In this document: piece after piece, positions 8,057 through 32,438 of the stretch
Numbering within the stretch: the stretch's first letter is position 1
How the letters are laid out: every line of letters starts with the position of its first letter
From: Terriglobia bacterium
GTDB lineage: Bacteria; Acidobacteriota; Terriglobia; Bryobacterales; Bryobacteraceae
NCBI GenBank assembly: GCA_025358575.1
Contig: JANYJA010000195.1
Span: 1 to 32,438 of the forward strand
Length of the DNA: 32,438 nucleotides
Reading direction: 5' to 3'
The notes under the pieces: generated by a model
What the model was told of the DNA's origin: nothing
The model's input: only the letters and a program-made list of their open reading frames with translations
Database searches by the model: none
Position numbers and translations under genes: made by a program

Positions 8057-9178
8057 TTAGCTTTGAATCAACTCCAATAGTACGCCGCCGGTGCTGGCCG
8101 GGTGCACGAATACATAGAGATGTCCGCCGGCCCCGCGCCGCGGTTCGTTGAGCAGCCGCGCCCCGCCCGCCCGCAGCCGCTCCACGGCATCCGTCAGGCT
8201 TGAAACTCTGATCGCGACGTGATGCATCCCAGGACCATGCTTATCCAGAAACTTGGCAATCACCGTATCCGGATGCAGCGGTTCCAGCAGCTCTATCCGA
8301 GACCCGCCCGCCGGCAGCATCGCGACCCGAACGTTTTCCGATTCCACTATCTCGATCAATGCCACTGTCATTCCAAGCCGATCGCGATAGAATCTGAGTG
8401 CTTCATCGAGCGAGCGCACTGCAATGCCGAGATGATCGATCTCGAATGCCGCGCGGGTCTGCCTCATCACTGGTTTGCGCTCCTGGATCGCGACCAGCAA
8501 CTCGGCGACTCCCAGGCCTTCGAGTGCGGTCGTACGCACAATCGCGGGCGTCGCGCGCGGGCTGTGCCCCAGGCTCAACATCGACTGAATTTCGCGCTCG
8601 GTTTGCTCGGCGCCCGGCCGGTCGGCTTTGTTGATGACGAATATATCCGCAATCTCCATCACGCCCGCCTTAATCGCCTGGACGTCGTCACCCATGCCTG
8701 GCACCAACACCACGACGGTGACGTCCGCGAGACCCGCGACCGCAATCTCGTCCTGGCCCACGCCCACCGTCTCAATGATCACGAAATCGAAGCCCGCCGC
8801 GCGCAACAGCTTGGCGAGGTTTTCGGTAGTGCGCGCAATCCCGCCGACAGATCCCCGCGTCGCCATGGATCGGATAAAGATACCAGTGTCGGCGTGGTGC
8901 CGCTGCATGCGAATGCGATCGCCCAGGATGGCACCGCCCGTGACGCGGCTGGTAGGGTCGACCGCGATGATGCCAACCGTCTTGCCGCGCTTGCGAATCT
9001 CAAGAGCCAGTGCATCGACCAGCGTGCTTTTCCCAGCGCCCGGCGGACCCGTGATGCCAACAATGATGCCCGTGCCCGGCGTAACGGCAATCGCGTCCAG
9101 AAGCTGCGCGGCGTCTTGCGTGTGATTCTCAAGAGCCGACGCCGCGCGCGCCAAGGCACGTGGGTTGCGCTCGAACAT
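8057..9178 (-). CDS. Fusion of MeaB-type GTPase and methylmalonyl-CoA epimerase
   Basis: One 373-residue frame holds two enzymes. Residues 1-240 are a MeaB/ArgK-type G3E GTPase, the chaperone that loads and protects B12 in methylmalonyl-CoA mutase: Walker A GITGPPGAGKST (41-52), VDPTSRVTGGAILGDRIRM, FIRSMATRGSVGG, IIETVGVGQDE (134-144), VINKAD (181-186). Residues 247-373 are a complete methylmalonyl-CoA epimerase of the VOC fold with metal ligands His249 (IDHLGIAV), Glu296 (IELLEP), His319/320 (GMHHVAIRV) and Glu369 (LLEL). The usual C-terminal helices of MeaB (family length about 310-330), used for dimerisation, are missing and the epimerase sits in their place. The ATG overlaps the acyl-CoA dehydrogenase stop by one base (TGATG). 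The product should act in propionyl-CoA to succinyl-CoA conversion; the mutase itself is not in the window. Confidence 0.93.
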   Translation of the reverse strand: MFERNPRALARAASALENHTQDAAQLLDAIAVTPGTGIIVGITGPPGAGKSTLVDALALEIRKRGKTVGIIAVDPTSRVTGGAILGDRIRMQRHHADTGIFIRSMATRGSVGGIARTTENLAKLLRAAGFDFVIIETVGVGQDEIAVAGLADVTVVVLVPGMGDDVQAIKAGVMEIADIFVINKADRPGAEQTEREIQSMLSLGHSPRATPAIVRTTALEGLGVAELLVAIQERKPVMRQTRAAFEIDHLGIAVRSLDEALRFYRDRLGMTVALIEIVESENVRVAMLPAGGSRIELLEPLHPDTVIAKFLDKHGPGMHHVAIRVSSLTDAVERLRAGGARLLNEPRRGAGGHLYVFVHPASTGGVLLELIQS

Positions 9179-25304: not shown

Positions 25305-26418
25305 ATGAACGAACATGCAAGTTTCCTGGTTAGCGCGGTGGCTTACCTCGACCGTGTGAATATTTCCATCGCTGGCCAGCGATCGCCCGAGAATTCCACC
25401 TCAATAACGAACAGCTCGGCTGGATGTTTAGCGCCTTCGTGCTGGGCTACGCGCTGTTTCAAGCGCCCGGCGGATGGCTTGCCGACCGCATCGGCCCGCG
25501 CATTTTGCTCACGCTCGGGGTAGTCTGGTGGGCCGTTTTCACATGTCTTATCACCTTCTTCTCACCCACCGCCGCGGCATTGCTGCCGATGCTCATCGCG
25601 ACGCGCTTCTGTCTCGGGCTCGGCGAAGCCGTGGTGTATCCGGCGTTAAACACTGTGGTCTCGGCGCGGATTCCCTCCTCCGAACGCGGCATTGCCAACG
25701 GCGTAATCTTCGCAGGAGGGGGTTTCGGCGCTGGCATCACGCCGCCTCTCATCACGTGGGTGCTTTGAATCACGGCTGGCGTCCATCGTTTTGGATCAGC
25801 GCGGTGCTGGGCCTTGTCGTGGGGGGTTGGTACATCGTTGCGCGCGAAACTCCGGCGCGGTACCCGTGGATCTCCGCCAGCGAAACTGAATTTATCCAAG
25901 CCGGCCTGCCACAGGAAAAAAGTCCCGGTGCGACTTTGAGCTGGGGAGCCATTCGGCGCAGCCGCGACGTGCTCGCCGTCACCCTGAGTTACTTCACCTA
26001 CGGCTACGCCGCGTACATTTTCTTTAGCTGGTTCTTTATCTACTTGAATGCCGTGCGCGGCCTCAACTTGAAGCAAAGCTCTTACTACACCATGATGCCG
26101 TTTCTCGCCATGGCCATCGGTTCGCTGGACGGCGGATGGTTCGGCGCCGCCGCCATGCTGCTGGCCGCCGTATTCATCGCCATGGGGTCGCAAGTCGCCA
26201 GTCCGCAACTAGCGAGTTTCGTGCTGGCCGGCGGTGCAGGCGCACTCTATCTTTCGCAAAGCTCGTTCTGGTCCGTGACGGCCGACATCGGCAAGCGTTC
26301 GGCCGTTTCGGTTTCCGGCATCATGATTATGGGCGGGCAGCTTAGCGGCGCGATCCTGTGGCTGCCCGTGCGCCCCGAGGCGCATTGGACCCGGCTGCTT
26401 AGGATCGCGACTTGGTGA
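25305..26418 (+). pseudogene. Decayed MFS transporter (anion:cation symporter type)
   Basis: Pieces of one major-facilitator protein occur in three frames. The first reads VAYLDRVNISIAG from 25305; one missing C at about 25377 moves the frame to AREFHLNNEQLGWMFSAFVLGYALFQAPGGWLADRIGPR through GAGITPPLITWV. A second shift at about 25763 leads to NHGWRPSFWISAVLGL and on to SYYTMMPFLAMAIGS. Near 26130 a block of about 25-30 residues is missing (GSLDGGWFGAAAMLL), and near 26350 another (SGAILWLPVRPE). The end overlaps the stop of the opposite gene. The type matches hexuronate/tartrate symporters (ACS family). The number of lesions makes it a true pseudogene. Confidence 0.85.
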
Positions 26419-31010: not shown

Positions 31011-31790
31011 GTGTTTCTCGCCCCCTTGTTACTTATCTTCGCCGCTCTGGTCGCATGGCTGTGCGTCTGGCCGCCAGCGTGGGCACCGCTTGCCATCACG
31101 GCAGCGGGGCGGAACTACGACCAGCAGTTTGCGCTCACGCTAGCCGTCACTGGAGTGCTATTCGTGGCGGCGCATCTGCTGCTGGCTTACGTTTTGATGC
31201 GATACCGGAAGGGCGACGGCCCGGTCTCTACGACGATTGGCAGCCGGAAGGTCGAGATTCTCTGGACGGTCGCGATGGCGCTTACTTTCGCCGCGCTTGG
31301 GCTCACGGGAGCGCGGTTGTGGGGAGGGCCGAGCGCGCCTCCTGCCGGTGCTGAGGCCGAAACCATTGAGGTGACAGCCCACCAATTCGCGTGGAATTTC
31401 CGGTACGCGGGACCGGATCACCGATTTGGGCATACGGATGTGCGGTTGATCGATGACGCGGCGGCGAATCCCTTCGGGCTCGACCTGCACGATCCAGCGG
31501 CCCTCGATGATCGCATGACTAGCACGCTGCGGGTGCCGGTGGATACCGAGATTCAGCTCATCTTAAAGGCGCGCGACGTGATCCACGATTTCTTTGTGCG
31601 TGAATTGCGATTGAAACAAGACGTGGTGCCGGGAATGGAGATTCCGTACCGCTTCCGGGCAGATCGTTTGGGCGTGTATGAGATTGCGTGTTCAGAACTG
31701 TGCGGGCTGGGGCACAGCCAGATGCGAAGCACGATGCAAGTGATGCCAAAGAGCGATTACACGCGCTGGATTGCCGGCGGGCACGAGTGA
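31011..31790 (+). CDS. coxB: Cytochrome c oxidase subunit II
   Basis: The 259-residue protein has hydrophobic segments at about residues 3-20, 41-63 and 83-100 and a periplasmic cupredoxin domain with a complete CuA site: His192 (VIHDFF), Cys227, Glu229, Cys231, His235 and Met238 (CSELCGLGHSQM). The aromatic patch HQFAWNFRY (124-132), which carries electrons from cytochrome c, is present. There is no fused cytochrome c domain. The GTG start at 31011 has no Shine-Dalgarno sequence and lies 4 bases after a strong hairpin, so the start is uncertain. The stop overlaps the coxA start by four bases (GTGA). Confidence 0.9.
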   Translation: MFLAPLLLIFAALVAWLCVWPPAWAPLAITAAGRNYDQQFALTLAVTGVLFVAAHLLLAYVLMRYRKGDGPVSTTIGSRKVEILWTVAMALTFAALGLTGARLWGGPSAPPAGAEAETIEVTAHQFAWNFRYAGPDHRFGHTDVRLIDDAAANPFGLDLHDPAALDDRMTSTLRVPVDTEIQLILKARDVIHDFFVRELRLKQDVVPGMEIPYRFRADRLGVYEIACSELCGLGHSQMRSTMQVMPKSDYTRWIAGGHE

Positions 31791-32368
31791 CGGTGTTCTC
31801 ACGAGATCACCGCGTAATTGGCCGTCAATATTTCTACCTGGCATTGTTCGCGGTTCTTGTGGGGACCGCACTTTCGCTGGTGATGCGGTTTCATTTGGTG
31901 CATCCGGAGGGTTACAGCATGACCCCGGAACTGTACCTTTCGTTGATGACGATGCACGGCACCATCATGGTGTTTTTCGTGCTGACCACGGCGCCGCAGA
32001 ATGCTTTTGGCAATTTGATTCTGCCACGACAAATCGGGGCGGCGGGGATGGCCCATCCAACGCTGAACATGATGTCTTTCTGGACCACTGTGTTGTCGCT
32101 GCTGGTGATGGCGGCGGCGTTTCTGGCGCAAGGCGGCGGTCCACTCTCGGGGTGGACAGCTTACCCGCCATTGAGCGCGGTCGGGGCGATCGCGGGGCCG
32201 GGGCAAGGAACGGGGCAGACGCTTTGGTTCGCGAGCATCGCGATCTTTTGCTTGGGGTCGGTTATGAGCGCGATCAATTTTATCGCCACCGTGATCGACC
32301 TCCGAACCGTCGAATTGATGGCGATGCCGCTGACCTGCTGGAATTGGTTCGTGACCAGTGATAGGTAG
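31787..32368 (+). pseudogene. coxA: Cytochrome c oxidase subunit I, 5' part, broken after residue 190
   Basis: From GTG 31787 (overlapping the coxB stop) the frame reads true subunit I: IGRQYFYLALFAVLVGTALSLVMRF, LSLMTMHGTIMVFFVLTTAPQNAFGNLILPRQIGA with the low-spin haem ligand His57, PLSGWTAYPPLS, GQTLWFASIAIFCLGSVMSAINFIATVIDLR, MPLTCWNWFVT. After Thr190 it continues only as SDR and a stop at 32368. In intact subunit I the protein would run on for about 350 more residues. The bases after the break encode a later part of the same protein on the other strand, so the gene is interrupted by an inversion or a mis-join rather than by point mutation. Confidence 0.85.
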
Positions 32369-32438
32369 CCGCGAAGATGGCGAAAATCGCCGCCACCGCC
32401 ATAATGATGTGGAAGTGCGCCACAACGAAATAAGTGTC
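32355..32438 (-). pseudogene. coxA: Inverted internal segment of coxA (HFH haem-ligand helix)
   Basis: On the minus strand the last 84 bases encode DTYFVVAHFH followed by IIMAVAAIFAIFAATYHW, 28 residues. This is the subunit I helix whose two His of HFH bind haem a3 and haem a, ending at the point where intact proteins read YHWFPKM. The frame runs off the window to higher coordinates. It abuts the end of the forward coxA part at 32354-32357, where TGGT and ACCA (32345-32348, 32354-32357) form a short inverted repeat. Confidence 0.85.

Follow-up and report, generated by a model that had tools for sequence, protein, structure and literature searches.

A strand switch within coxA at the right end of a Terriglobia draft contig is very probably a chimeric terminus

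Chimeric joins between nearby DNA segments have been characterized in amplified DNA. In DNA amplified from a single cell of E. coli, Lasken and Stockwell (2007) mapped 475 chimeras; in the parts of that study drawn upon here, 406 of them (85%) were inverted, the joined segments lay mostly less than 10 kb apart, and 76.8% started at two or more complementary bases (PMC1855051). Library preparation alone also yields inverted chimeric reads, as described in the relevant part of a second report (PMC10908179). Invertons form a distinct class: according to the portion of a third study used here, inverted repeats serve to locate them, and they are called when reads show both orientations (PMC11892184).

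The window analysed here is the whole of contig C81 (32,438 bp) from the draft genome of a Terriglobia bacterium, G000 (4,766,175 bases in 261 contigs, with a listed completeness of 95.6%), and the assembly holds nothing past position 32438. At its right end coxA, encoding a subunit of a cytochrome c oxidase, abruptly continues on the opposite strand (Table 1). This join resembles the chimeras of multiple displacement amplification in its inverted second segment, its skip to a nearby site and its 2–3 common bases, and joins of its geometry (inverted, with a skip of about 650 bp) predominate in the portion of the chimera survey cited here (PMC1855051). It is seen in a contig, whereas Lasken and Stockwell dealt with single reads, and we liken the two by the form of the join, as far as that source describes it (PMC1855051). 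Like the chimeric reads of library preparation, it has one part from one strand and the remainder from the opposite strand nearby; however, those reads, as described, need pre-existing inverted repeats or palindromes in the genome, whereas the coxA join has 2–3 nt in common and a skip of about 650 bp (PMC10908179). With invertons it shares a segment reversed relative to related genomes; these are defined in the cited part of that study by inverted repeats together with reads in both orientations, neither of which is in evidence for C81 (PMC11892184). Compared with the caa3/aa3-type coxA families (TIGR02891, PF00115), the gene aligns in its forward part, but only two pieces of it are present and a Gly replaces the Asp that precedes the MAFP motif in most relatives. 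We conclude that the right end of C81 is very probably a chimeric contig terminus, i.e., an artefact, and not a real inversion of the gene.

Table 1. Features at the right end of the window (contig C81)
Feature	Positions	Strand	Remarks
coxB, cytochrome c oxidase subunit II	31011-31790	+	complete frame, 259 aa
coxA, 5' part	31793-32356	+	188 codons, GTG start at 31793, ends ...CWNWFVT; open to the junction
junction	32354-32356		AC or ACC common to both sides; from 25 relative rows
antisense coxA piece, HFH helix to YHW	32357-32438	-	last 82 bases, to contig end

The identity of both pieces was established by profile searches. The forward part of coxA matches positions 2–166 of the 436 of the Pfam COX1 model (E = 4.3e-38) and its alignment to the NCBIfam model TIGR02891 takes in the first 185 of 504 positions. 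The antisense piece consists of 27 residues of the coxA family, reading DTYFVVAHFHIIMAVAAIFAIFAATYHW; most of the aligned rows show 70–85% identity between it and the relatives. When the minus strand of 32352–32438 was compared with Pfam COX1, it matched positions 339–366 with E = 1.7e-6 and 27.6 bits, a score that misses the COX1 cut-off of 34.8 owing to the shortness of the piece (29 residues); the corresponding match to NCBIfam CtaD_CoxA covers positions 362–389 (E = 1.4e-8). Given these two E values, the switch of strand lies far beyond chance, and the claim of the earlier note that it falls within coxA is borne out by the COX1 and CtaD_CoxA matches on opposite strands. Immediately upstream, coxB matches Pfam COX2 (E = 1.1e-15), scores 145.2 bits against the NCBIfam CoxB model TIGR02866, slightly below its cut-off of 147.7, and contains CSELCGLGHSQM, which we take to fit the CuA ligand pattern; its description as intact holds, given the complete frame and the COX2 match.

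Of the 257 genomes of the order, 99 yielded a protein match with E = 1e-40 or lower, G000 itself being one of them. Our comparison covered 76 loci; some genomes contributed more than one of these, and the second oxidase of G000 (L001) is included. All 76 have both pieces on one strand and in the usual order; in 73 of them, representing 62 distinct proteins, the pieces also lie in one frame, and among the other three, which keep the same strand and order, two come from a single genome interrupted by a stretch of N. In one titled relative (L046) the genes follow the order coxB-coxA-coxC. The distance from the forward break to the Trp of the antisense piece is 215–216 codons in 25 relative rows, these being the rows that fit the patterns and are readable base by base, with some genomes represented twice; an earlier estimate of some 200 residues was thus close. 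C81 therefore joins two nearby segments in opposite orientation with 215–216 codons skipped between them. All 25 rows have Ala (GC) past the forward break and a T past the Trp codon; the relatives therefore indicate that the two sides have either AC or ACC in common at the join. Since random inverted joins would have at least 2 nt in common in 17% of cases and at least 3 nt in 6%, this overlap is weak evidence for an inverted chimera, and it would fit a real illegitimate inversion equally well.

The same comparisons bear on whether the antisense piece belongs to this gene at all. A truncated coxA might lie tail to tail beside part of a second copy on the other strand: two matches occur in seven genomes of the family (G003, G030, G067, G068, G075, G152 and G259) and in G039 from another family, and 27 residues are too few to assign the piece to the same copy with certainty. 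However, we found no second copy of the same type in G000, and a single locus, L018 of genome G006, is the top-scoring match for both pieces; we regard this arrangement as the least likely of those considered, with hardly any probability attached to it. The oxidase on contig C202 is likewise an unsupported source for the antisense piece, its match extending over 20 of the 27 residues at 70% identity; that oxidase is 27% identical to the forward part of the C81 gene.

Alternatively, some 650 bp of coxA may really be inverted, with the inversion fixed in the sampled population and the terminal oxidase inactivated; the break of the contig 82 bases on would then have had another cause. The observed strand switch is exactly what would be expected at one end of the inverted segment, and with a second oxidase on C202 the loss might be tolerated. 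The protein deviates at 7 of 81 near-invariant positions, the joint highest number among 42 sequences, which might hint at relaxed function. On the other hand, a comparison of the 188 forward codons with, for instance, L059 gave 37, 31 and 92 differences at the first, second and third codon positions, respectively; changes are two to three times as frequent at third positions as at first and second ones, and from this pattern the forward part looks to be under purifying selection rather than decaying. Its motif AAGMAHP carries Gly where most relatives have Asp before MAFP; this Asp would be D132 of the Rhodobacter enzyme, at the entrance of the D proton pathway. This Asp is also missing in 6 of 63 aligned relatives (L226, L228, L229, L230, L242 and L025, with G, G, E, E, Q and K among them at this position), all of which are full-length and keep the Glu of GHPE. 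Because these six full-length relatives lack it too, the unusual residues of the C81 protein are no proof of decay, and together with the codon-position pattern these relatives leave pseudogene decay of coxA unsupported. Moreover, the border of a fixed inversion would have to fall by chance within the last 85 bases of the contig: the join lies 82–85 nt from the contig end, and positions no more than 85 nt from either end make up 0.5% of C81. We accordingly judge a fixed inversion very unlikely. If fixed and switching forms are taken together, an inversion of about 650 bp in the cell that silences this oxidase, with the C202 oxidase as the remaining heme-copper enzyme found, is still improbable; if true, it would be a case of a terminal oxidase silenced within its own coding sequence, possibly as a respiratory switch.

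We also surveyed the contig ends of G000, sampling 400 bases from each of 160 other ends as well as from both ends of C81. Among the 162 ends 149 were readable, while the other 13, on ten contigs shorter than 3 kb, read N. Contigs C17 and C18 end in an identical stretch of 141 bases, and this single pair suggests that the assembly was made with k = 141. Shorter identical overlaps run tip to tip between C22 and C49 (57 bases), C5 and C27 (85 bases) and C32 and C60 (76 bases); they suggest ends at which coverage was too thin for k = 141, and the contigs of each pair probably adjoin in the genome. Overlaps other than tip to tip link C234 with C60 (102 nt) and C38 with C78 (71 and 47 nt). The idea that C81 ends exactly one k-mer past its junction was rejected, the full overlap of two ends being 141 nt and not 82–85. 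The start of C44 (L107 = G000:C44:1-400, bases 1–259) is a perfect inverted repeat with arms of 128 nt and 3 nt between them that reaches the first base of the contig. This is a probable fold-back chimera, resembling the inverted chimeric reads of library preparation as that source describes them (PMC10908179), and its presence suggests that inverted chimeras find their way into contig ends of this assembly. At the other readable ends we found no inverted arms of 15 nt or more except for a 16-nt palindrome in the stretch common to C17 and C18. Fold-backs are thus rare, at 1 of 149 readable ends, and differ in form from the skip-ahead join of C81, which counts against the chimeric reading.

A further form of the inversion would be a reversible switch, with the internal part of coxA turned round by a recombinase and either orientation represented in the population. 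Matches to tyrosine recombinases (14) and resolvases (4) elsewhere in the genome would be compatible with it. However, among the 26 window sequences scanned, a subset of its frames, we found no site-specific recombinase or transposase domain and hence no nearby invertase gene, and in place of flanking inverted repeats the break sites have only 2–3 nt in common, the second border being placed from the relatives. The short repeat at which the earlier note had preferred to locate an inversion (TGGT-5-ACCA, 32345–32357) is unremarkable: it is one of 149 equal hairpins in the window, it was partly created by the join, with its last A lying beyond it, and it stands at only one of the breaks and does not frame the segment. 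Collinearity holds in each of the 76 loci, and if both orientations were present, contig building with k = 141 would be expected to halt at the branch, near 32356, rather than 82 bases further on. We therefore rejected the switch as the main reading, for want of flanking repeats and of a recombinase among the scanned sequences, and consider it extremely unlikely. Of the three readings proposed earlier, i.e., a knock-out, a switch and an assembly chimera, we favour the last over inversion at a short inverted repeat, which had been put first, and the switch is the weakest in view of the 2–3 nt overlap, the 149 occurrences of this type of repeat and the absence of a recombinase or transposase among the 26 scanned sequences.

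For the chimeric terminus we propose the following course. While the DNA was being amplified or the library prepared, a growing 3' end on forward coxA would have stopped at about codon 188, paired through 2–3 bases with the other strand some 650 bp ahead in the gene, and been extended backwards from there. One or a few chimeric reads of this kind would then have extended C81 beyond its true coverage; by simple arithmetic, a single 150-nt read would carry the join with 59 + 82 = 141 bases. The join would thus have arisen outside the cell, in few of the reads, and the true gene would be collinear: an operon with the usual order coxB-coxA-coxC is presumably present at this site of the genome, the remainder of coxA falling into an assembly gap. 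More generally, a strand switch within roughly 100 bases of the end of a short-read contig, at a join of 2–3 nt, should be taken for a chimeric end unless reads show otherwise.

The rest of the assembly was searched for the continuation of C81. The contig ends before coxA is complete, and neither the missing part of the gene, which includes the active-site half, nor a continuation of the contig was found in searchable G000, in which the fetched contigs shorter than 3 kb read N; the remainder of coxA might sit on one of these short contigs. The last 99 bases of C81 have no other long match in G000. A coxC partner for this coxA was likewise not found in the searchable part of the genome, where the only COX3 match is on C202.

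Two further frames of the window deserve mention. A transporter frame on the plus strand (25474–26418) matches only positions 147–345 of the 347 of the MFS_1 model, and its first half must therefore be missing or out of frame. On the minus strand, a frame of 373 aa (8057–9178) combines a MeaB domain at residues 7–241 with a glyoxalase-type domain at residues 248–357, and we take it to be perhaps a fusion of MeaB to methylmalonyl-CoA epimerase.
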